Below, one piece after another: positions 14,361-28,816 of a DNA stretch of 32,112 nucleotides. The notes beneath the pieces are model-generated. The model did no database searches and had not been told where the DNA came from. It was given only the letters and a program-made list of their open reading frames with translations. The translations under genes were made by a program, and so were the position numbers. This DNA is from Flavobacteriales bacterium (lineage in GTDB: Bacteria > Bacteroidota > Bacteroidia > Flavobacteriales_D > Cryomorphaceae). The stretch spans positions 1 through 32,112 of the forward strand of contig SLDS01000030.1 of NCBI GenBank assembly GCA_007125175.1, read 5' to 3'. Positions within the stretch are counted from its first letter, which is position 1. Every line of letters begins with the position of its first letter.

Positions 14361-15923
14361 ATGATTTTTATGAAAAGAGTTGTATTCCTTTCAATTTTGG
14401 CTTTCGCGCTCTCCTCTTTTGCCGCTCAGGCGCAAAAGAAGATGGGTCGATACCATAAGAACTTGCTCTACGAAGCTGACCTGTACCTGGTACAAGGCGA
14501 TTATTATTACTCTGCCGAGCTGTACGAGGAGTTACTGAGGGTGAGCCCAAAAAATGCCGAGATCAACGGCAAATTGGGCATTTGCTACTACAACCTGCCC
14601 ACAATGAAGCCGCAAGCCCGTGAAGCCCTTGAGCGTGCAGTGGATGGTGGCGACACGGAGGCGCTCTACTATCTGGCCAAGCTCAAGCATGAGGATTACC
14701 TCTTTTACGACGCCCTCGAGCTATTGGAGCGCTATGAGCGTAGGCCCAGCCGCGAAAAAACGGCAGCTGAGATCGAGCGGGCCAAAGAGATTTCCAAGAG
14801 GGCCTCTGTGCTTGTAAAGGATCCACTTCTTGTAAAGATTGAGAATCTGGGCCCTGGAGTCAATTCTTCGGCTCATGACTACGCTCCTGTTTGGGATATG
14901 TCCGGAGACCGCATCTATTTCACTTCGCGCCGGCGTTTTGATGACAAGAGCGAGAAGGATTTTACAGAGCAATTTGATGAAAATATCTATGTGATCAACC
15001 TTGAGGAAGAGAGCCTCGAGGCGAGACCCGCACTGGGTAGCATCAACTCGCGGAGCAATGATGCCGCTGTGGCCTGCTCGCATGATGGCAATGAGCTGAT
15101 CGTGTACCGCACGAGCAAGGACGGCTTCTCCGGCGATCTGTACAAAGCGGTACACACCGAGGATGGCTGGGGCAAATTGGAAAAGCTCAGCGAAAAAATC
15201 AATAGCCGATACCAGGAAGCCAGTGCTTCGTATGGAGGCCCTGAGCAGAATGTGCTCTACTTTTCCAGTGATCGGCCCGGCGGCTACGGGGGAAAGGATA
15301 TCTACAAGGTGCAGCAATTGCCCGATGGTACCTGGAGTGAGCCCTTTAATCTCGGGCCGACCATCAATACACCTTACGATGAGGATGCACCATTCATAGC
15401 CGCTGATGGTACCCTGTATTTTGCCTCGAAGGGGCATGATAATATGGGAGGTTTCGACATCTTTTCTGCTAGACCGCTTACCGGCGGTTATTCCGAACCT
15501 GTGAACCTGGGATACCCGATCAACACCCCTGCCGATGATATCTTTTTTTCGATTGAGCCGCAGGGTAAGCAGGCCTATTTTTCTTCGGATCGCAAAGGAG
15601 GCTATGGCCTTCAGGATATTTATACCGTCCACCTCAACCTAGACGAGACCATCATCTACCGGGGCAAGTTGCTGAGCATGGGTATGCCTGTGAAGAGCAG
15701 AGCTACAGTAACACTCATCGAAAAGCAAGGGGTAGAAAACCGAGTGCTCTTTCAGGTGGAAACGGGTAAGAGTGAATTTATCCTAGCCTTGGATGCTGAA
15801 AAGGCCTACACGGTAGAAGTAGAAGCTGATGGCTATGGTCAATCTACCCGAGACCTTCATTTTGAGCTGCCGGTGAGCGGCACAAAGGAGGTAGTAGAAG
15901 ACATAGAGCTTAGCCGCAAATAA
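14361..15923 (+). CDS. TPR and PD40 beta-propeller protein, PorE/OmpA-like but without an OmpA domain
   Basis: The product is about 520 residues. A signal peptide (KRVVFLSILAFALSSFAAQAQ) is followed by TPR-like helices (residues about 30-130, ADLYLVQGDYYYSAELYEELL), then PD40/WD40-like propeller blades (about 165-420, with IYFTSRR, LYFSSDRPGGYGGKDIY and AYFSSDRKGGYGLQDIY), then a small carboxypeptidase-regulatory-like beta domain to the end. This order matches the proteins encoded beside PorP/SprF and T9SS adhesin genes, which normally end in an OmpA peptidoglycan-binding domain. Here the gene stops after the regulatory domain and the next gene begins 5 bases later, so no remnant is hidden. 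The start at 14361 lies one base after the upstream stop; ATG 14370 gives a cleaner signal peptide. It probably acts in the periplasm with the adhesin and the PorP/SprF protein. Confidence 0.85.
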   Translation: MIFMKRVVFLSILAFALSSFAAQAQKKMGRYHKNLLYEADLYLVQGDYYYSAELYEELLRVSPKNAEINGKLGICYYNLPTMKPQAREALERAVDGGDTEALYYLAKLKHEDYLFYDALELLERYERRPSREKTAAEIERAKEISKRASVLVKDPLLVKIENLGPGVNSSAHDYAPVWDMSGDRIYFTSRRRFDDKSEKDFTEQFDENIYVINLEEESLEARPALGSINSRSNDAAVACSHDGNELIVYRTSKDGFSGDLYKAVHTEDGWGKLEKLSEKINSRYQEASASYGGPEQNVLYFSSDRPGGYGGKDIYKVQQLPDGTWSEPFNLGPTINTPYDEDAPFIAADGTLYFASKGHDNMGGFDIFSARPLTGGYSEPVNLGYPINTPADDIFFSIEPQGKQAYFSSDRKGGYGLQDIYTVHLNLDETIIYRGKLLSMGMPVKSRATVTLIEKQGVENRVLFQVETGKSEFILALDAEKAYTVEVEADGYGQSTRDLHFELPVSGTKEVVEDIELSRK

Positions 15924-15928
15924 ACTTC

Positions 15929-16954
15929 ATGCGCATCCTTCGCTACATATCCTTTGTATTGTGCTTACTGGCTATGACCGTGAGTGGGGCACTTTATGGG
16001 CAGGATCAGCAGTTCACGCAGTTCTATGCCTCGCCCATCACGCTCAACCCGGCTTTTGCGGGTACATCGATGCAAAGCCGCGCGGCCATGAATTACCGCA
16101 ATCAATGGGCTACACTGCCGAGGGCTTTTGTTGCTTACAGCGCGGCCATAGACCACTATGTTCCTGAGCTCAATAGCGGTTTTGGGCTCTTGGTGTCGCA
16201 TGACAGGGCCGGGACAGGAGCATTGAGCTATACCTCTGTAGCCCTTCAGTATGCCTATGAAATCAAAATCAACCGAAAGCTCAGCATTCGTCCGGCACTC
16301 AGCTTTGGATATGGTAGTACCTATCTCGATATAGACAGGCTCACCTTTGGCGATCAACTTGCCAGGGGAGATGGTGCCACCACCACCCTGGATCCGGACC
16401 GTGCGCGCTTCGCACAAGAGCCTGTCGGCTCAGCCGATTTTGGCACCGGACTTTTGCTATTCAGCGATAACTTCTGGTTTGGGGCCTCTATCCACCACAT
16501 CAATGAGCCTACTGTATCCGTAGTAGGAAGAGACACGCAGCTTCCGAGGAGGTACAGCGTTCACGGTGGCTACAGATTTCGGGTAAGCGAATTGGGGGCT
16601 TTTTCCAACAGGCAATTCATCGTGCCTGCCATCCATTATCAGAGCCAGGGTATGTTCGACCAATTGGATATCGGATTTTACTACGAGTATTCTCCCATTA
16701 CTTTTGGCTTGTGGTACCGTGGTTTGCCATTGTTCAAGAGCAATGATCACCCATATATCAATCACGACGCTGTCGCCGTTCTTGTAGGGTATGAAGTTAA
16801 CAACTATAGATTTGGCTATAGCTATGATGTAACCATTTCTCAAATGACCAATCGGAGCGGAGGTTCGCACGAGATAAGCATGGTAGTAGAATGGGCTAGC
16901 AAAAAGAGCAAGCGCAAAAGCAAGCGAAGGGTTATACCATGTGCCAAATTTTAG
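15929..16954 (+). CDS. PorP/SprF family type IX secretion system membrane protein
   Basis: The 341-residue protein has a signal peptide (about 25 residues ending YGQ) and the PorP/SprF opening QDQQFTQFYASPITLNPAF-AG, followed by NYRNQW. The rest alternates short beta strands ending in aromatic residues, as in an outer-membrane barrel (for example LSIRPALSFGYGSTYLDI and FGYSYDVTISQM). PorP/SprF paralogues are usually paired with a particular T9SS type B substrate and help attach or export it. Here the partner is the PKD adhesin two genes upstream. It is the last gene of the three-gene operon, with a terminator-like hairpin 11 bases after the stop. The lysine/arginine-rich tail (SKKSKRKSKRRV) is a little unusual. 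Confidence 0.92.
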   Translation: MRILRYISFVLCLLAMTVSGALYGQDQQFTQFYASPITLNPAFAGTSMQSRAAMNYRNQWATLPRAFVAYSAAIDHYVPELNSGFGLLVSHDRAGTGALSYTSVALQYAYEIKINRKLSIRPALSFGYGSTYLDIDRLTFGDQLARGDGATTTLDPDRARFAQEPVGSADFGTGLLLFSDNFWFGASIHHINEPTVSVVGRDTQLPRRYSVHGGYRFRVSELGAFSNRQFIVPAIHYQSQGMFDQLDIGFYYEYSPITFGLWYRGLPLFKSNDHPYINHDAVAVLVGYEVNNYRFGYSYDVTISQMTNRSGGSHEISMVVEWASKKSKRKSKRRVIPCAKF

Positions 16955-20126: not shown

Positions 20127-20798
20127 ATGGCCAAGAGCCCTGCCCGTCTGTTGATTGAGACATTTGCTGAGCCCTTATACCGATTGTATTCCAGTGATTT
20201 GAGAACCTGGAAGTACGAAGAATTGGATTTGCTGGTGATGCCCGGAGTATTTCATCCCGGTTGGTTTGTCACTTCGCGCATGCTCCTTGATAAAATCGAC
20301 AGGCTAGAACTTCAGGGAAAGTCAGTATTAGAGCTCGGATGTGGATCTGGGGCACAAGCCTGTCGGGCTGCACAGCTTGGTGCCATATCGCATGCCAGCG
20401 ATGTGACTCCAGTAGCCTGCAAGAATGCACAGCTCAACGCCGAGAGAAATGGACTACAAGTGTCGGTGTTTGCCAGCGATATTTTTGAGAGTATACCGGA
20501 GGGAGTCCATTTTGATTACGTCTTTGTAAATCCACCTTTTCTGCCCTCTTATCCCGAAGAAGAGAGGGATTTTGCATTCTGTTGCGGCGAGCAATACGAG
20601 TATTACATGTGCCTATTTCAGCAGTTGCGACAGGTGCTGCACAAGGACGGACGGGTCATCATGGCCCTTGCTAAGAGCTGCGAGATCGAGCGAATCCTCG
20701 CTTTGGCCGATATGGAAAAAATCCAGCACATGCGCATTGACAAGCTCAGGCGCTGGGCAGAGACCAATTACCTCTTTGAATTTTCGATCCGGGATTGA
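20127..20798 (+). CDS. class I SAM-dependent methyltransferase with NPPF motif
   Basis: The 223-residue protein has a Rossmann methyltransferase motif I, VLELGCGSG (67-75), an acidic SDVTP after strand 2 (91-95), and NPPF at 135-138. (N/D)PP(F/Y) is typical of enzymes that methylate a planar amide or exocyclic amine, such as PrmC-type glutamine methyltransferases and rRNA or tRNA guanine-N2 methyltransferases. About 60 residues precede the Rossmann core, containing WKYEELDLLVMPGVFHPG, reminiscent of the pre-core region of PrmC/RsmC-like proteins. The substrate cannot be named. It is a single gene, with its stop 2 bases from the stop of the convergent OmpA gene. Confidence 0.85.
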   Translation: MAKSPARLLIETFAEPLYRLYSSDLRTWKYEELDLLVMPGVFHPGWFVTSRMLLDKIDRLELQGKSVLELGCGSGAQACRAAQLGAISHASDVTPVACKNAQLNAERNGLQVSVFASDIFESIPEGVHFDYVFVNPPFLPSYPEEERDFAFCCGEQYEYYMCLFQQLRQVLHKDGRVIMALAKSCEIERILALADMEKIQHMRIDKLRRWAETNYLFEFSIRD

Positions 20799-20800
20799 GC

Positions 20801-22012
20801 CTAATTCTCCAAAATGGTGAATTCTACCCTTCGATTGAGCGCACGCCCCTCTTCACTCTCATTGCTCGTAAAGGGTCTTTCACTTCCATATCCCTTGTAG
20901 CTCAGCCGTTCGGGATCTATTTTTGCTTTGAGCAGATACTCCACCACGGCACGGGCCCGTTCTTCACTGAGCTTTTTATTGTAGTCGGCCGAGCCTACAT
21001 TATCGGTGTGTCCTGATATTTCGATCTTTAGCTTGGGGTAATCCTGTAGGATATCATTCATCTTATCGAGCTCCTGCTTGGACTCCCGAAGCAAAGTCTC
21101 CTTGTCAAATTCGAAAAAGATATTCTCCAGCCTGATGGTATTTCCCACCTTGTAGTCTATGCTGTCGAGTTTCACCTCCACTGTCGACACAATTTCGGCT
21201 TCTTGTAGCACCCGCTTTGGCTTTGGAGGGTGGCTGGCTCGGGGTTTTGGGCTGAGTTTCTCATCCGGCTTTGCCCGCCTCACGTATACATCGTCTACGT
21301 AGTAGTAGGCTCCCCGCTCCCCTTCCGGAAATTTTTCGATCAGGGTTTCGTCGTCGTGGTAGAAATTGCCGATTAGCAAGAATTTTTTCTCGCTGTCCAC
21401 TTCAAAGACTCCGCTCACCTTCTGCCACATGTTCCAGCGCGATTTCACCAATTTATCGCTGTTTACATGAGGGGTAAAAAAGAGGGGCATCCTGTCGCGG
21501 GTGACCACTGCGGTATCGCTGAAGTACATTCCGAGATTGTTGGATGCCATAGCAGAGGCCACACTTCGATTGGCATAAAATTCAGCGTAGTAGCGTTGAC
21601 CTGCTTGCAGTGCTGAGTCCAATTCCACCATGAGGTACTCGTGCCAAAAGGTGTCTGTGCCTCCCTTCCCATAAGTTTTTATGCCTGCCATGTTGTCGCC
21701 GTTTCGGGGGCCTTGCTTGCCTTTGCTGTGCTTGCGTGGGTGTGCCCAGCAGCTACGTGCCACCCGCATGCTGAGTATGTCGGGGGTGGATTCGGTAGGA
21801 GAGTCCCAGTACAAAACGTCTTCCATATAGGCACGGCCTTTCTGATTCCACACGCAGTACTCCCGCTTGGTATCCTCGAAGCTCGCATTGGGTACGTAAT
21901 TGTAATAGCCCTCATTGGAGCTGGAAAAAAGCTCTCCCAATTGGGCATGAACATTTCGCGGCAGCAGCAAAAAGGAGCAGCAGATCGCCAGTAGCATGGG
22001 TCTTTTCAACAT
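20801..22012 (-). CDS. OmpA-family protein with N-terminal jelly-roll-like domain
   Basis: From ATG 22012 the protein is 403 residues with a signal peptide (LKRPMLLAICCSFLLLPRNVHA-Q). The N-terminal 240 residues, starting NYVPNASFED, then ILYWDSPT-like and YVDDVYV segments, look like a carbohydrate-binding-like jelly-roll module. A proline/lysine-rich linker (PKPRASHPPKPKR) leads to a canonical OmpA C-terminal domain: FFEFDKETL, ISGHTDNVGSADYN, LSEERARAV and GYGSERP, with both diaminopimelate-binding residues (Asp of HTD, Arg of ERA) present. It should therefore be tethered to peptidoglycan. The frame is open to 22042, but the promoter element at 22047-22054 and the signal peptide favour 22012. 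It is divergent from a second OmpA gene. Confidence 0.88.
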   Translation of the reverse strand: MLKRPMLLAICCSFLLLPRNVHAQLGELFSSSNEGYYNYVPNASFEDTKREYCVWNQKGRAYMEDVLYWDSPTESTPDILSMRVARSCWAHPRKHSKGKQGPRNGDNMAGIKTYGKGGTDTFWHEYLMVELDSALQAGQRYYAEFYANRSVASAMASNNLGMYFSDTAVVTRDRMPLFFTPHVNSDKLVKSRWNMWQKVSGVFEVDSEKKFLLIGNFYHDDETLIEKFPEGERGAYYYVDDVYVRRAKPDEKLSPKPRASHPPKPKRVLQEAEIVSTVEVKLDSIDYKVGNTIRLENIFFEFDKETLLRESKQELDKMNDILQDYPKLKIEISGHTDNVGSADYNKKLSEERARAVVEYLLKAKIDPERLSYKGYGSERPFTSNESEEGRALNRRVEFTILEN

Positions 22013-22032
22013 GAGTTTTCCACAATGGTGTA

Positions 22033-22048
22033 TGTAGGTCATCCTACA
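22033..22048. promoter_or_regulatory. inverted repeat between the divergent OmpA genes
   Basis: TGTAGG (22033-22038) and CCTACA (22043-22048) form perfect 6-base arms around TCAT. The repeat sits at the predicted transcription start of the minus-strand OmpA gene, partly overlapping its -7 element, where an operator would act. It could equally be a chance palindrome. Confidence 0.3.
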
Positions 22049-22054
22049 AATCTA
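22047..22054 (-). promoter_or_regulatory. -7 promoter element for the minus-strand OmpA gene
   Basis: The minus strand reads TAGATTTG, an exact TAnnTTTG match, with the ATG at 22012 about 35 bases downstream. No -33 TTG was found. Confidence 0.45.
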
Positions 22055-22155
22055 CTGCGCGGCCTCTGTTGCCTGCATTTATACTTGCTTTTCTTTCATC
22101 AGGGCAGTGTGGAAAATGCCACTGCCAAGGCCATCCGAGGCCCGGAGTACAGGCA

Positions 22156-22163
22156 TATATTTG
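22156..22163 (+). promoter_or_regulatory. -7 promoter element for the OmpA-wza-wzc operon
   Basis: TATATTTG is an exact TAnnTTTG match, 24 bases before GTG 22187. It lies inside the open frame that begins at ATG 22025, which is the main reason to prefer the later start. Confidence 0.45.
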
Positions 22164-22186
22164 TTCAAAGCATCTGTGCCTCCGGA

Positions 22187-23362
22187 GTGAAATTTTCATC
22201 CTTCATAGCCTTTTCGGCCATTTTTATCCTTGTCCATGCCTCAGTTTTGGCCCAAACCGAAACAGTTGAGACTTGTATGGATGCTCAGGTTTTGCTTTTT
22301 CCCCTTTCGGAAAATGACTTTAGCACCAAGCGCATCGAGGTAGATGGCCGAGCCGTCAATGCCGTGTATTACGTGTATCAAGATAAGTACACATTTTGGT
22401 ATAAACTCGTTTTTAGCGAAGATCAGGTGGTCGATTTCTCCGTGCAGCCCAGTGTGGAAAAGGACCGCTACGGTGCGACAGCCTACCGTTATGGAGGCAG
22501 TGATTTCTGTGAGCGATTTGTAAACCAGGGCATAGACCCCATCATGCTGCAGCGGGCTCCCATGTTTTCAAAAGATGAAAAGCTCACCTACCTCAACCGT
22601 TTCGAAGCCTCAGCAGGCGACACGATCTACTTGGCAGTTTTGAGTCTTAATCCTGATGATTGTGGCCATTACCTCTACGTGGAGAGCGGCGGTCAAAGGC
22701 TGTCCGTACACGCCATCCACAGACCGTGCTATCAGTTTGCGCAATTGGATGCTCCCGACTTCAAGATGGCCCGCATGGGTGAGCCCGATGTGCAACTCTA
22801 CATCGAAGATTTGGACAGGAGGGCTCAAAGAGGTAGCGAGGAGCCAAAAACCGAACAAGCTGATCCCGAGCCTGCAGTACTTGTGGAGGAAGAGGATGAA
22901 GCCGGCTTCTCAAGTCTGAGCTCAGTGGTAGTAGAAAGCGCTGATGATGATCTTATTAGCGTTGGGGATCGACTGGTGCTCAATCAAGTTTTTTTCTACA
23001 ACAATACCTATGCTCTCAAGCCCGAGGCGGATGATGAACTCCAGCAATTATTGCAGTTTCTCAGGGACAACCCCAGCGTGAAGGTTGAAATAGAGGGTCA
23101 CAGTGCCAACTACAATGAGGACATTCGACCCGACCCCAACTTTAAGGGGCAGGGCAAAGAGTGGAATTTCAAGGGCAACTCTACTCAGCTGAGTGAGATG
23201 AGAGCCAAAGCAGTGCGTTCGTTTTTGATTGACAATGGCATACACAAGAAACGGCTAAAAGCGGTAGGTTACGGAGATACGCGTAAGCGCATAGTGGATG
23301 CAAAGGAGTTTGAAGAACACGAAAAAAATATGAGGGTAGAGGTGCTCATCACCGCCCAGTAA
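22187..23362 (+). CDS. OmpA-family protein leading the capsule-export operon
   Basis: The frame is open from ATG 22025, but the signal peptide (VKFSSFIAFSAIFILVHASVLAQ) starts at GTG 22187, which also lies just after a promoter element, so 22187 is preferred (391 residues). The N-terminal half is a beta-rich module of unknown type with several Cys residues; an acidic linker (about residues 220-245) follows. The C-terminal domain is OmpA-like (VFFYNNTYALKPEADDEL, IEGHSAN, LSEMRAKAV, AVGYGDTRKR) but the Asp of the usual HTD is Ala, and about 20 extra residues separate that loop from LSEMRA. The wza-like gene starts one base after its stop. It probably helps anchor or gate polysaccharide export at the outer membrane. 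Confidence 0.82.
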   Translation: MKFSSFIAFSAIFILVHASVLAQTETVETCMDAQVLLFPLSENDFSTKRIEVDGRAVNAVYYVYQDKYTFWYKLVFSEDQVVDFSVQPSVEKDRYGATAYRYGGSDFCERFVNQGIDPIMLQRAPMFSKDEKLTYLNRFEASAGDTIYLAVLSLNPDDCGHYLYVESGGQRLSVHAIHRPCYQFAQLDAPDFKMARMGEPDVQLYIEDLDRRAQRGSEEPKTEQADPEPAVLVEEEDEAGFSSLSSVVVESADDDLISVGDRLVLNQVFFYNNTYALKPEADDELQQLLQFLRDNPSVKVEIEGHSANYNEDIRPDPNFKGQGKEWNFKGNSTQLSEMRAKAVRSFLIDNGIHKKRLKAVGYGDTRKRIVDAKEFEEHEKNMRVEVLITAQ

Positions 23363-23363
23363 T

Positions 23364-24119
23364 ATGAAGAAACTGCGATACATAGCATCAGGGCTTATCT
23401 TTTTGTTTCTCGGAGCCTGCGTCCCTTACAAAAAGGCTTTGTACATGAATGACTTGCGCGAGCGTGAGGCACAAGTGGCCATCGCCAAGGCTGAGGAGAT
23501 ACCACTGGTGAGCGGCGATCTGGTCGAAATCTACATCAGCAGCATTAGCCGTGAGACCAGCGAATTCTTCTACAAGCCCGGGGGCGATCCCGATACCAAA
23601 TCGGGCGCCAATGTCTATCAGATTGGCGCCAATGGCAGCGTAGACCTCCCGCTCGTCGGCATGGTGGAGCTCGCAGGCAAGCAGATAGAAGAGGCGGAGG
23701 AATTGCTGCGTATCAAACTTGCCGACTATCTTCAGAAGCCCACCGTGAATCTGCGACTGATCAATTTTCAGGTCACTGTACTTGGAGAGGTCGCCCGGCC
23801 GGGTACATATCGCATACCTTCAGGCCGTAGCAACCTGCTCGAGGCTTTGGGTAGTGCCGGAGATATCACCCTCTTTGGTGAGCGCGGCAATGTATTGCTC
23901 ATTCGCGGAGAGGGCCCGGACTCTCAGTATTTTCGCATCAATCTGAATGAATCAGAATTCTTGCAGAATCCGCAATATCATTTGAAAAACAATGATATAA
24001 TCTACGTTCCTCCCACCAGAGGCCGTACTTCTGCCGATGACAACGTGTACAGATTGCTGCCCTTGGTGCTCAGCGGCCTCACCTTTGTAGCGGTCATAAT
24101 CAGTCTTTTGAGCAGTTGA
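23364..24119 (+). CDS. Wza-type polysaccharide export lipoprotein
   Basis: The 251-residue protein starts with a lipoprotein signal peptide (lipobox LGAC, Cys19). A Poly_export domain follows (SGDLVEIYISS, then QIGANGSVDLPLVGMVELAGK), then an SLBB domain (VLGEVARPGTYRIPSGRSNLLEAL). A C-terminal hydrophobic stretch (LLPLVLSGLTFVAVIISLL) could be the outer-membrane helix seen in Wza. These proteins form the octameric outer-membrane channel for capsule or exopolysaccharide. Order in the operon is OmpA, this gene and the Wzc-like gene, each one base apart, so translation is probably coupled. The assignment is strong. Confidence 0.93.
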   Translation: MKKLRYIASGLIFLFLGACVPYKKALYMNDLREREAQVAIAKAEEIPLVSGDLVEIYISSISRETSEFFYKPGGDPDTKSGANVYQIGANGSVDLPLVGMVELAGKQIEEAEELLRIKLADYLQKPTVNLRLINFQVTVLGEVARPGTYRIPSGRSNLLEALGSAGDITLFGERGNVLLIRGEGPDSQYFRINLNESEFLQNPQYHLKNNDIIYVPPTRGRTSADDNVYRLLPLVLSGLTFVAVIISLLSS

Positions 24120-24120
24120 G

Positions 24121-26538
24121 ATGAAGGAGGAGCAGGCACGCAATCAGGACGAGCTTCGCGAAGAGCGCGATTTCAATGTGAGGCAGTTCCTCATCAGATA
24201 TGGCTCATATTGGCCTCTTTTTGCGATTTCCTTGGTACTTGCTATGGCGATCGCCTATACCTACAATTGGTACCAAAATCCTGTCTTTGCCGTTTCCGCA
24301 AAACTGCATGTGCGCGACGACAATACAGGCAAGGAAGGGCTTTTGCGGGCCCTCGACGCGGATCCCAGTGCAAAGAATATCGAAAATGAGATGGAGATCT
24401 TGCGCTCCTACAGCTTGCTGGCCAAAACGCTGAATGACCTCGAGTTTGACGTCTCCTACTATCTCGTCGGCGATCTCAAAGTATCGGAGGTGTACAAGGA
24501 TTGCCCCTTCAAGATTCAGGCCCTGCAGCTTCATTTCTCTGCATACTCCATTCCCATTGAGGTGGAACTCATCGATGCTGAGCGATTCAGCCTGCGCTAT
24601 TCGCACGCAAAGGAAGAACACAGCAGGGAAGGACGATATGGCGATACCTTGATGGAGCCCATCGGGCAGCTCATGCTGGAAAGGCGGGATAATTTTCCCG
24701 AAGCAGCCCTTGCCTCCGGTAGCCTCGAAAAGCGCAATTACAAGGTGCGCTTCAATACCATGGGCTACAATCAGAACAAATACCTCTCCCGGCTCAGTGT
24801 GGGGCTGTCGAGACCACAAAGCACCATCCTCCAGCTCTACCTGGAGGATGAGGTGCCCCTTAAAGCCTTGGATTTTCTCAATAAGCTGGTCGAAGTATAC
24901 CTGGAAAACGACATCGAGGAGAAAAACAAGGCTGCAGCAACCACACAAACTTTTCTCGACCGGCAGCTTAGCAGCATTACACATGATCTGGAGCAGATTG
25001 AGACCAATCGGGAGCGCTACAAGGTGTCGAAAGGCATCATCGATCTGCAATCCGAGTCCAAGCTGGTTATGGAGAGCATCAAGGATGTGGATGTGCAGCG
25101 TTCGCTCAACAATGCCCGTATCGGAATGATCGATCAACTCGTGACCTATGTGGTCGACAATGCCGACCTCCGCGATTTGGCCCCCGCCGCCCTCGACATC
25201 AGCGATCCCTTGCTGGTACGCCTGATCAATAAGCTCTCAGAGTTGCAGAGCCAGCGAGAGATTATCCTCAACAAGAGCACCATTAACGACCCCACATTGG
25301 TGCCCCTCAATGCTGAGATTGAGCTCACGCGTTCTTCCCTGCTCGAGAATGCCCGCAACATTCGCAAGGGACTCAAGCGAAAGGAGGCTGAGCTCGATGA
25401 GGAAGTGCGGCGATTGAGCGGCCGCATGCAACAGATTCCCACCACCGAGAGGGAATTGCTGGAGATTGAGAGGCGCTTTCGCATTCAAGAGGGGCTGTAC
25501 ACATTTTTGCTGCAAAAGCGAGCCGAACTCGCCATCTCCCTTGCGGCAAATGAAAGCAATGCCCGGCTGGTAGACTCCGCCCGACTGCTACCAGGTCCTA
25601 TATACCCCATTCCCAAAAAGGCCTACAGCATTGCCATATTGCTGGGGTTCTTATTCCCCCTTGCATTTGCACTGGCCCGTGAAAAGTTCAACGACAGCAT
25701 CACAGATATATCCCAGCTCAAGAGCCTTACGCGCATACCACTCATTGGTGTGGTGCGGCTCAGCAAGCGAGAAGGGTCGCTGGTAAGCCTCACCGCTCCG
25801 CAGTCGCCGATTGCAGAGGAGTACCGCAGCATACGCACCAATTTGAAGTTTTTCATCCAGCCCGGCCCGTACGAGCAGGGTAGCAGCGGAAGGGTTTTGG
25901 CGGTGACATCATCGGTGGGTACTGAGGGCAAGACATTCAATGCCATGAACCTCGCCTGCGTGCTCGCCGCCTCAGGTGCACGGGTAGCCTTGGTGGGCCT
26001 GGATCTCCGCAAGCCGAGGATTGTCGAAGATTTTGGCCTTAGCAATGATGTTGGCTGCAGCAATTTTCTGATCGGGAGTGCCGATCTGGCCGAGATCACC
26101 TTTCCATCGGGCGTGTACGATAGCCTCTACGTGGTGCCCTCGGGGCCCGTGCCGCCCAATCCTTCCGAGCTCGTGGCATCGCCCAGAATGGAGGTGCTCA
26201 TGCAGGAGCTGCGCAGCAAATATGATTGGGTAGTGATTGACACACCTCCTGTGGGCTTGGTGAGCGATGGCCTTGTACTCGCGGAGCATGCCGATCTCAA
26301 TCTATTCATCGTGCGCCACGAGATTACCCGACGCGAGCATGTGAAGCACATCGATGAGCTTCATTCAAGAGGCCGCATCGCCAACATGGCCATCATCTTC
26401 AATGCAGTGTCACGAAAGAAAGGTGCCTATGCATACGCCTCCACATACGGTTATGGTGCGGCCTACGGAAAGTACTTTCAAGATGATGAAAGCCTTGGCA
26501 AGGGCAGCAAGCTAAGGCGCTGGTTGGCCAAGAAATGA
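24121..26538 (+). CDS. Wzc-type polysaccharide copolymerase / BY-kinase
   Basis: The 805-residue inner-membrane protein has a first membrane helix at about 33-52, a Wzz domain, a long periplasmic coiled-coil region (about 270-480) and a second helix at about 503-522, followed by a cytoplasmic tyrosine kinase. Walker A is VGTEGKT (about 599-605), Walker A' is ALVGLDLRKPR (about 622-632) and Walker B is VVIDTPP (about 703-709). The C-terminal tail has six tyrosines in 16 residues (YAYASTYGYGAAYGKY), the expected autophosphorylation cluster. It controls chain length and export with the Wza-like channel. No phosphatase gene (Wzb or PHP type) is in view. Its stop overlaps the flippase start by ATGA. 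Confidence 0.95.
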   Translation: MKEEQARNQDELREERDFNVRQFLIRYGSYWPLFAISLVLAMAIAYTYNWYQNPVFAVSAKLHVRDDNTGKEGLLRALDADPSAKNIENEMEILRSYSLLAKTLNDLEFDVSYYLVGDLKVSEVYKDCPFKIQALQLHFSAYSIPIEVELIDAERFSLRYSHAKEEHSREGRYGDTLMEPIGQLMLERRDNFPEAALASGSLEKRNYKVRFNTMGYNQNKYLSRLSVGLSRPQSTILQLYLEDEVPLKALDFLNKLVEVYLENDIEEKNKAAATTQTFLDRQLSSITHDLEQIETNRERYKVSKGIIDLQSESKLVMESIKDVDVQRSLNNARIGMIDQLVTYVVDNADLRDLAPAALDISDPLLVRLINKLSELQSQREIILNKSTINDPTLVPLNAEIELTRSSLLENARNIRKGLKRKEAELDEEVRRLSGRMQQIPTTERELLEIERRFRIQEGLYTFLLQKRAELAISLAANESNARLVDSARLLPGPIYPIPKKAYSIAILLGFLFPLAFALAREKFNDSITDISQLKSLTRIPLIGVVRLSKREGSLVSLTAPQSPIAEEYRSIRTNLKFFIQPGPYEQGSSGRVLAVTSSVGTEGKTFNAMNLACVLAASGARVALVGLDLRKPRIVEDFGLSNDVGCSNFLIGSADLAEITFPSGVYDSLYVVPSGPVPPNPSELVASPRMEVLMQELRSKYDWVVIDTPPVGLVSDGLVLAEHADLNLFIVRHEITRREHVKHIDELHSRGRIANMAIIFNAVSRKKGAYAYASTYGYGAAYGKYFQDDESLGKGSKLRRWLAKK

Positions 26539-27893
26539 TCCGCAAGCTACAGGAACTCTATCGGGCCTCGGCCGATGAACGCGGCAAGCGCATCCTTCGT
26601 CATATCCTTATGGGAGCCGGCCTTAAGGTGGTCAATTCCATCGTTAGCATCCTCATTATACCTCTTTATCTCAGTTTGCTCACTGAGGTGTCATTCGGTA
26701 TCTGGCTCACGGTAACTGCCGTGATCAATTGGTTCAACATCTTTGACCTGGGATTGGGCAATGGCCTTCGTAATCGATTTGCTGAGGCCCGCGCTCAGGG
26801 CAATGAAGCCCTGGCAGCCAGCTATGTGAGCACATCCTACTTTTGCCTTGCAGGCGTATCGCTCTTTCTGCTGCTACTCTTTCTACTAGCCGATGCTTTC
26901 GCAAATTGGGGGAGCCTATTCGCTGCTCCTGAGCATTTGCACACCCAAGTAAATGCGATGACGCGCATACTGATGCTGCTCTTCCTGCCCCAGTTTGTGT
27001 TCCAACTGGTCAAGGTAGTGCTCACCGCCGATCAACGTCCCGCATGGGGCAATGCCATCAATAGCCTCATCAATGTGCTGCAAATGGCTATGGTGTGGCT
27101 GCTTATCACTGTAGAGGCCGATAGCCTCCCTGTGCTGGCCATCGCTATTGGCGGAGTCAATTTGCTGGTGCTCCTGCTCTCCAATCTCTACTTCTTCTTA
27201 GGAAAGTACCGGCGCTACAGGCCCTCCTACAGCCGCTTTGCCCTCCAACACATTCGACCGCTTATGGAGTTGGGCATCGTCTTTTTCGTGCTTCAGGCGG
27301 CAGCAGTGGTGGTTTTCATGACCGACAATCTCATCATTTCCAGGGTGCTTGGCCCCGAGGAGGTTCCCGCCTACAATGTTGCATACCGCTATTTCAACTT
27401 TGCCGCAGTATTTTTTGGGCTGGTCACCACACCTTTTTGGTCGGCTTTTACCGATGCTTTCGCCAAAAGGGAAATGGAGTGGATAGCCAGCATGGTGAGG
27501 CGACTTTTGCGTTTGTGGGTGCTCCTCGCCCTGCTTTGCATCCTCATGCTGGTATTTAGCAATGTGGTGTACCGTCTCTGGCTGGGCGATGCCCTCGAGA
27601 TCCCATTCCTGCTCAGCGCCATCATGGCTGCATGGGTCACAATGTCCATGCTTCTAGGTATATACGGCACAGTGCTAAGTGGCATGGGAGTGCTGAGGCT
27701 CTCTCTTTACCATGCAGTGCTGGTCATGCTGATCAATATACCCCTGTCGGTATGGCTGGCTGGTATGCCCGCTCTGGGCAGCGCAGGTGTGATTCTGGCC
27801 ACACTCATTGGCCTCATGCTCCGCGCCTTTTTTCAGCCCTTGCAGTGTTACAAAATACTCAATGGCAGTGCCCGGGGCATTTGGTCACGATAG
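26535..27893 (+). CDS. Wzx-like polysaccharide flippase (MATE/PST superfamily)
   Basis: The 452-residue protein is a polytopic membrane protein with about 12-14 hydrophobic segments, beginning LKVVNSIVSILIIPLYLSLL and the GIWLTVTAVINWFNIFDLGLGNGLRNR segment (shown here in family terms: a loop with FDLGLGNGLRNR), which is characteristic of oligosaccharide flippases. It would move lipid-linked repeat units across the inner membrane. Its start overlaps the Wzc-like stop by 4 bases. A Wzy polymerase is not recognisable within the window. Its last 9 bases overlap the convergent sulfotransferase-like gene. Confidence 0.9.
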   Translation: MIRKLQELYRASADERGKRILRHILMGAGLKVVNSIVSILIIPLYLSLLTEVSFGIWLTVTAVINWFNIFDLGLGNGLRNRFAEARAQGNEALAASYVSTSYFCLAGVSLFLLLLFLLADAFANWGSLFAAPEHLHTQVNAMTRILMLLFLPQFVFQLVKVVLTADQRPAWGNAINSLINVLQMAMVWLLITVEADSLPVLAIAIGGVNLLVLLLSNLYFFLGKYRRYRPSYSRFALQHIRPLMELGIVFFVLQAAAVVVFMTDNLIISRVLGPEEVPAYNVAYRYFNFAAVFFGLVTTPFWSAFTDAFAKREMEWIASMVRRLLRLWVLLALLCILMLVFSNVVYRLWLGDALEIPFLLSAIMAAWVTMSMLLGIYGTVLSGMGVLRLSLYHAVLVMLINIPLSVWLAGMPALGSAGVILATLIGLMLRAFFQPLQCYKILNGSARGIWSR

Positions 27894-28805
27894 GTAGTGT
27901 TTTCTAAAACCTTCGAGTGTAGAGCCTTCCGGCAAATCTGCATACACGGCTTTCAGGTCTGGCTCATAGTATTCATGCAAGGCTTCACGCACTTCGGAGC
28001 TAAAGCCGAAGCGCTGCCCCCAGCCCATGTATTTTTCAATAAAGCGCACCTTGCGGCGAAAGAGGCCGCTGCCCAGGGAGCTGGCGTGGTGCAGGTCTTT
28101 CCACAAATTCAGTCGGCGCATGAAGCGCAATTGCATCCGGGTGAAGCTTCTGTTTACCTTTCGGGAAAAGTGGGGCTTACGGCTGTAGGAGAGCTCTAGC
28201 CTGCTGCACAAAGCTTCACAGAAGGCTTCGGCATCCTCAGCAAAATCTTCGTAAAAGAATAGATGAACCTTGGAAAAATGCTTGTTGCACAGCGCTAGTA
28301 AGGGCTGATAGAGGTATGACTCCAGATGTTCTCCTTGCTCGTAAGTGGGATATATATCCGGCTGCCCCTGTGCCAAGGGAATGGGTGAGGGGTGCAGAAA
28401 GTCGGAGGGGCCTTTGGAGAAGCCCGCGTAAACCGCAAGGCTGTAAAGGGATTCGAGCAGATCCACCTGGCGACGCAGGATGATCACCGCTTCTGCTTCC
28501 GGAAAGGCCGCTGCGAGTCTTTCCAGCGTGCGGCTGCGGGTGGTAGAACAAAAGTAGAGTGATTGGCCCACAAAGAGCTCATTGGAAAGCAAGGCATCAC
28601 TTCTGCGCAGCTCGGCTGTGCTGTGGGCAAAAGCGTCCGAATCAAAGAGGCTGTCATCTTGAAACAGCATTTGCTGAAAAGCCCGGCTGTACTGGCAGCG
28701 ATCCACACCTGCGTATTGGAAACCCTCCAAAAAAGGCCATACTTCACGCTGGAAAAAAGTGCTCGCTGCGCGCGGCATGCCGAGGTGTATGAGGGTGCGG
28801 GCCAT
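27885..28805 (-). CDS. sulfotransferase-like protein
   Basis: From ATG 28805 the protein is 306 residues. Residues 4-19 (TLIHLGMPRAASTFFQ) match the 5'-phosphosulfate-binding loop of PAPS sulfotransferases, where PR-x-(A/S)-ST is typical, and IILRRQVDLLESLYS (108-122) matches the 3'-phosphate-binding motif with Arg112, Ser119 and Tyr121. The C-terminal third is basic and aromatic. If functional it would transfer sulfate to a sugar or polysaccharide. It is the only minus-strand gene in the polysaccharide region and overlaps the flippase 3' end by 9 bases. No PAPS-synthesis genes are in the window. The family call is fairly good; the substrate is inference. Confidence 0.7.
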   Translation of the reverse strand: MARTLIHLGMPRAASTFFQREVWPFLEGFQYAGVDRCQYSRAFQQMLFQDDSLFDSDAFAHSTAELRRSDALLSNELFVGQSLYFCSTTRSRTLERLAAAFPEAEAVIILRRQVDLLESLYSLAVYAGFSKGPSDFLHPSPIPLAQGQPDIYPTYEQGEHLESYLYQPLLALCNKHFSKVHLFFYEDFAEDAEAFCEALCSRLELSYSRKPHFSRKVNRSFTRMQLRFMRRLNLWKDLHHASSLGSGLFRRKVRFIEKYMGWGQRFGFSSEVREALHEYYEPDLKAVYADLPEGSTLEGFRKHYLS

Positions 28806-28808
28806 GCA

Positions 28809-28816
28809 CAAAACTA
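28809..28816 (-). promoter_or_regulatory. -7 promoter element for the sulfotransferase-like gene
   Basis: The minus strand reads TAGTTTTG, an exact TAnnTTTG match ending 4 bases before the ATG at 28805. Transcription would begin at or just inside the start codon, giving a leaderless message or indicating a slightly later start. Confidence 0.4.

Follow-up and report, generated by a model that had tools for sequence, protein, structure and literature searches.

An OmpA-family protein with an altered diaminopimelate site at the head of a Wzc-type export operon in Cryomorphaceae

Introduction

Domains of the OmpA/Pal/MotB type are, as a rule, taken to be anchors in the cell wall. In PorE, Asp576, Asn584 and Arg591 grip the peptidoglycan stem peptide with their side chains (PMC7192894), and the underlying motif has been described as TD(x)7NxxLSxxRA, in which the Asp, the Asn and the Arg are the most critical residues (PMC5104382). 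Mutating the Asn position abolishes the binding of TagL to the wall (PMC8253398). The nearest described departure from this pattern is Tp0624 of Treponema pallidum, a multi-domain protein with Ala in place of the Asp, the Asn replaced and the Arg kept, which failed to bind diaminopimelate (DAP) both by ITC and by soaking (PMC5104382). For the export channels relevant here, short OPX proteins of up to 280 aa with a C-terminal helix, found mostly in Bacteroidetes, likely work like Wza, while helix-less short OPX proteins couple to beta-barrels (PMC9601211).

The sequence analyzed here, referred to as the window, is a stretch of 32,112 nucleotides from a Flavobacteriales bacterium of the family Cryomorphaceae. 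It contains an export operon whose first gene encodes an OmpA-family protein, designated OmpA-X, with an unusual DAP site. OmpA-X resembles the OmpA/Pal/MotB domains of PorE, Acinetobacter baumannii OmpA and TagL in its fold, its PF00691 score, its LSxxRA motif and its Arg, and differs from them in the replacement of both the Asp and the Asn, in a loop that is longer by 17 residues, and in a C-terminal NMRVE where NRRVE is usual. It shares with Tp0624 the change of Asp to Ala, the replaced Asn, the kept Arg and a multi-domain build (Tp0624 structure 5jir, Z 13.8), but the other domains are different, treponemes lack DAP while the host here looks DAP-type, and no exporter linkage is described for Tp0624 in the portion of PMC5104382 considered. 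In the open-licence PMC literature, searched by title and the start of the abstract, no paper was found on a polysaccharide export operon with an OmpA protein that lacks the Asp. The unusual site of OmpA-X is real and conserved; the fold is known, and the operon is restricted to one lineage, a small group of marine bacteria. The reading that we favor, with about even confidence, is that OmpA-X serves one lineage of Wzc exporters, in Cryomorphaceae and one neighboring family, as a dedicated accessory that is soluble and periplasmic, with an OmpA domain that most likely does not grip DAP.

Results and Discussion

Organization of the export operon

OmpA-X occupies positions 22187..23362 of the forward strand, as assigned from the ORF and an alignment with seven other full-length homologues. 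The longest ORF over the gene runs from 22025 to 23362, and the GTG at 22187 was taken as the start because the first Met falls at this position in the two most distant relatives, and because a stretch resembling a signal peptide comes next. The signal peptide was placed at 22187..22252, with cleavage before QTETVE set by eye rather than by a signal-peptide program, and the mature protein has about 368 residues. The second gene (23364..24119, forward strand) encodes a short Wza-type OPX lipoprotein of 251 aa (PF02563, 48.1 bits against a cut-off of 28; SLBB, 35 against 27; lipobox by eye). It is followed on the same strand by a gene for a Wzc-type co-polymerase and tyrosine autokinase (24121..26538; TIGR01007, 134.5 bits against a cut-off of 108.05; GNVR and AAA_31) and by a flippase-like gene, here Wzx (26535..27893), an ORF that was labeled by eye and from context rather than by a family library and whose position is conserved.

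The TAA of OmpA-X ends at 23362 and the wza ATG lies at 23364, which confirms the single base between the two genes given in the original prediction. In five relatives the two genes overlap by 1 or 4 bases, so that the junction is tight in six of six loci, and the first genes of the operon are therefore probably translationally coupled. A scan of positions 20600-24300 for promoters and terminators gave no signal above that of shuffled sequences, and no match to Wzy_C (PF04932) was found on the window contig (G000:C86), the matches of this genome lying on other contigs.

On the other side of OmpA-X, 144 bases from its GTG start, lies a divergent OmpA-family gene (20801..22042, reverse strand; PF00691, 87.3 bits) in which the Asp, Asn and Arg are intact. 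A divergent canonical OmpA gene stands beside OmpA-X in all nine loci that carry OmpA-X or a piece of it (the window and L021-L028), including those of the family without wza at the locus. Judged from their binding residues, one protein of this conserved pair is likely to bind the wall and the other likely not.

The DAP site and the long loop

The OmpA/Pal-type domain of OmpA-X (22991..23329, forward strand; residues 269-381 of 391 aa) scores 55 bits against PF00691, with a gathering cut-off of 27.2. At the position of the DAP-binding Asp there is an Ala codon (GCC, 23105..23107, forward strand), as had been predicted, and OmpA-X reads GHSA where the adjacent divergent OmpA reads GHTD. This position is Ala in six and Ser in two of the eight full-length homologues. 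The original prediction missed two further changes. At the position of the DAP-binding Asn there is a Ser codon (23180..23182, forward strand; Ser in five and Ala in three of the eight), and the C-terminal NMRVE in place of NRRVE is present in 8/8. The Arg of LSxxRA (23201..23203, forward strand) is kept in all eight. Since two of the three side-chain contacts to DAP are replaced throughout while the Arg stays, the original proposal is supported as far as a dedicated component with an altered ligand site is concerned, and the residues at the site suggest that the domain most likely has no grip on the stem peptide of peptidoglycan. The retained Arg counts against a complete loss of binding, as it would be expected if some peptidoglycan carboxylate were still bound.

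The loop of the DAP site is replaced by a long loop (23102..23188, forward strand) that contains IRPDPN and WNFKG and spans 29 alignment columns, ten of which are invariant in 8/8. The distance from the Asp site to LS is 27 residues in all eight homologues, compared to 10 in 35 of 38 Asp-bearing domains. The extra stretch before LSEMRA is thus real, but it amounts to 17 residues and not to the "about 20" estimated before. Pairwise identity in the loop is 77% within the family of the window genome (Cryomorphaceae, the home family) and 47% between this family and the one neighboring family in which full-length homologues were compared. The N-terminal domain gives 62% and 30%, the OmpA part that precedes the loop 71% and 32%, and the OmpA part that follows it 68% and 43%. 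The loop is the best-conserved region of the protein, though between families the part after the loop (43%) nearly matches it (47%). This pattern of identity, together with the invariant columns, is unlike that of a site in simple decay.

The Asp-less OmpA clade

To place OmpA-X among related domains, 80 distinct OmpA domains were collected, 38 with the Asp and 42 without it. Because OmpA-X or its paralogue served as the query for the Asp-less rows, the number of these rows is uninformative on frequency. The Asn is kept in 37 of the 38 Asp-bearing domains and lost in all 42 Asp-less domains; the Arg is present in all 80, as is built in by a search pattern that demanded it. When the site columns were removed, the 42 Asp-less rows and 35 canonical rows were split by a single branch with support of 99/97, and OmpA-X formed one group inside the Asp-less clade (99/86). 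This tree holds 77 of the 80 rows, with the long-branch canonical rows L054, L055 and L057 excluded, and its bootstrap had not settled. A quick tree that kept the site columns and all 80 rows gave the same split, with support of 91.

Asp-less OmpA domains are therefore not unique to OmpA-X, and they are monophyletic in this sample. The loss of the Asp looks old, with the exporter-linked OmpA-X as a later specialization that has its own loop. As loss of the Asp is common to this larger clade, it cannot serve as a hallmark of capsule export. The single clade without Asp and Asn is the broader and less expected point. As the Asn is lost in 42/42 Asp-less domains and kept in 37/38 of the others, wall binding may not hold for many proteins of this class, and many Bacteroidota proteins annotated as "OmpA family" may not bind the wall.

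An Asp-less paralogue in the window genome (G000:C206, L076 4041-5354) reads GHVN in place of GHTD and lies near a gene labeled tsaB by eye. In overall plan it is the closest relative of OmpA-X. It is not beside an exporter, so loss of the Asp is by itself no pointer to export. The paralogue shares with OmpA-X a homologous N-terminal domain (hhalign, 97.9%) and an Asp-less OmpA domain; it differs in an extra middle stretch, a short loop of 12 residues and a place outside the export operons. It is present in both the home and the neighboring family and beyond them in the order. Of 60 relatives, 37 have a match to it at E 1e-20 or better, and some of these matches span the OmpA domain only.

Two further Asp-less OmpA domains, each with a 32-residue loop, are encoded in genome G243 (L077 7221-8447, reverse strand, and L078 5169-6455, forward strand). 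The L077 protein has a SPOR match before its OmpA domain (16.3 bits, below the cut-off of 21), and the L078 protein has a SPOR-like start by eye.

The host cell wall

The MurE of the window genome carries DNPR, which we take to be a marker of meso-DAP enzymes. There are 18 PF00691 matches in this genome, 17 of which cover the Asp position, and 15 of these 17 carry the Asp; the two domains without it are OmpA-X and one paralogue. Taken together, MurE and the 15/17 domains indicate that the wall should be an ordinary meso-DAP wall, so the change of the Asp would be specific to the protein and would not reflect a wall that lacks DAP. A host without DAP, as in Treponema, was rejected on the same two grounds.

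These observations bear on the main rival to our favored reading, namely that OmpA-X still anchors in the wall but through a different peptidoglycan ligand; the Arg would then hold some other group, such as D-Glu or a modified stem, and the exporter would be tied to the wall. The Arg kept in 8/8 is consistent with such an anchor, as is the sub-threshold SPOR match in the Asp-less member of G243, which hints at a wall context. The host, however, looks meso-DAP and has many canonical OmpA domains, among them the divergent neighbor, and the Asn position that is needed for the binding of TagL to the wall (PMC8253398) is lost as well. In favor of such an anchor, the authors of the Tp0624 study proposed binding of D-Glu for the same change of Asp to Ala (PMC5104382). 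On balance, an anchor of this kind is considered rather unlikely.

Predicted structure and localization

The whole-protein model of OmpA-X has a mean pLDDT of 66.5, with values of mostly 70-93 in the OmpA domain. The OmpA part aligns with chains of OmpA, Pal, MotB and PorE with VIA-align Z scores of 12.6-15.6 and rmsd values of 1.9-5.9 over 107-140 residues. A variable linker joins this domain to an N-terminal domain bounded by its first and last invariant Cys (22274..22729, forward strand). Modeled alone, the N-terminal domain is a beta-sandwich (mean pLDDT 70) that weakly resembles PPC and collagen-binding domains. The best match, to a collagenase PPC domain (Z 7.4, rmsd 3.1, 99 residues), is within the range of common sandwiches. 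No named family could be assigned, as Pfam gave no match up to E 1, PPC included, and the matches within the list of structures searched were weak.

Hydropathy peaks at 2.09 in the first 35 residues and at 0.77 in the mature part. With no strongly hydrophobic segment, the mature protein is most likely soluble and would reside in the periplasm. No barrel family was found in Pfam scans of OmpA-X, the N-terminal domain is modeled as a sandwich, and the protein does not appear to be an outer-membrane beta-barrel. The original prediction of an outer-membrane or cell-wall part of the exporter is therefore modified to a protein that looks soluble and periplasmic. The composite OPX/beta-barrel translocon is distinguished by an OPX protein without a C-terminal helix, whereas the Wza-type protein of this operon has a C-terminal hydrophobic helix (hydropathy 2.55). 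Together with its 251 aa, this places it with the short OPX proteins of PMC9601211, and the adjacent OmpA-X gene is what sets it apart from those described in the part of that paper considered here. Since short OPX proteins with such a helix likely work like Wza (PMC9601211), the channel itself should need no barrel from OmpA-X.

The model of the N-terminal domain also raises the alternative that OmpA-X is a surface or matrix protein, in which a PPC-like domain would retain finished polysaccharide at the cell and not aid the exporter. The best structural matches are indeed PPC and collagen-binding domains and adhesin sandwiches (Z 5.7-7.4), but these matches are weak and of a kind that sandwiches often give, Pfam has no PPC match, and inspection by eye revealed neither a surface anchor nor a T9SS signal. 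This alternative is considered very improbable compared to a periplasmic accessory of the exporter.

Distribution and linkage to Wzc

With the family profile at E 1e-20, 17 matches were found in 399 genomes of the order, consisting of eight full-length proteins, one N-terminal piece at a contig end and eight matches to the OmpA domain only. Among 395 genomes of the phylum, three matched the profile, the window in full and two others in the OmpA domain only. A scan of 84,980 species with one genome each gave eight loci (five full length, one truncated and two with the OmpA domain only), Cryomorpha ignava among them; it used two peptide patterns and may miss relatives. In 395 genomes of the class, the loop's exact DNA pattern matched only the window itself, and exact patterns miss variants.

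In all six complete loci of the home family, the window included, the genes after OmpA-X are wza, wzc and the flippase-like gene. A pair confined to the window genome, which the original prediction named as a refuting outcome, is thus not what was observed, but all six genomes belong to one family. In the neighboring family, wza is missing from both loci (L026 7665-12612 and L027 9776-14729), where OmpA-X, wzc and the flippase-like gene are consecutive. These two genomes have a single PF02563 gene each, located elsewhere beside another Wzc.

The 59 wza loci and 20 wzc loci examined are the best-scoring matches, some of them cut by contig ends. Of the 59 wza loci, drawn from the order and the phylum, 58 are flanked by wzc and six by an OmpA domain, which is OmpA-X each time and always in the same family. 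No OmpA domain was found in the flanks of 11 other wza loci in six genomes of the home family (the window genome, G001, G002, G003, G005 and G006). Where the Wzc is at least 45% identical, OmpA-X adjoins in eight of ten loci, and the other two (G001 and G002) stop at contig edges just upstream; below 45% identity, OmpA-X is present in none of ten loci. The constant genetic partner of OmpA-X is the Wzc of one clade. The link to Wzc is rated above that to wza, which had been proposed as the partner and does pair with OmpA-X in six genomes, because two genomes keep OmpA-X directly before wzc with no wza between. A clade-specific indel in Wzc was considered as a docking site, and none of at least 3 residues was found between 9 rows of the clade and 10 others.

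As the linkage is confined to two families, an inherited old gene order could explain it, which argues against a dedicated role. OmpA-X might then be a passenger, a general envelope protein that stays in the operon with no part in export, as is also suggested by the paralogue of the same plan that is not beside an exporter and by the 53 of 59 wza loci that lack OmpA-X (some with flanks ending at contig edges). The overlapping or 1-base wza junctions in 6/6, the persistence of OmpA-X beside wzc where wza is absent, and an own loop conserved above the rest of the protein within the home family all speak against this, and a passenger gene is judged distinctly unlikely.

The reading of OmpA-X as a dedicated periplasmic accessory is as follows. 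OmpA-X belongs to an older Bacteroidota clade of OmpA-fold domains without the Asp and Asn ligands of meso-DAP, and the extra loop (IxPDPN...G..WNFKG) and the retained Arg may form a new surface or pocket. This surface would most likely dock on Wzc at its periplasmic portion, and on Wza in loci that have it, or bind a carboxylated glycan in transit. What the data show directly are the altered residues with their conservation, the membership of the clade and the linkage of the genes; the loss of DAP binding, the location in the periplasm, the partner and the ligand are inferred. It is possible, though doubtful, that Bacteroidota contain an unrecognized monophyletic class of OmpA domains that lost DAP binding and were put to use for other ligands, of which one has become a new obligatory periplasmic part of a Wzc exporter in Cryomorphaceae, the neighboring wza being dispensable. 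The exporter-linked OmpA-X offers a handle on the ligands of Asp-less domains and on the accessory parts of Wzc-type export in Bacteroidota.

Other genes of the region

Upstream of the export operon, positions 14361-16954 encode a PD40/TPR protein followed by a protein of the PorP/SprF family, a T9SS-type pair that has the same order in relatives. Within the export cluster, an ORF on the opposite strand (27885-28811, reverse strand) appears sulfotransferase-like by eye, and it is kept in the window and in the four relatives whose fetched stretch reaches that far.
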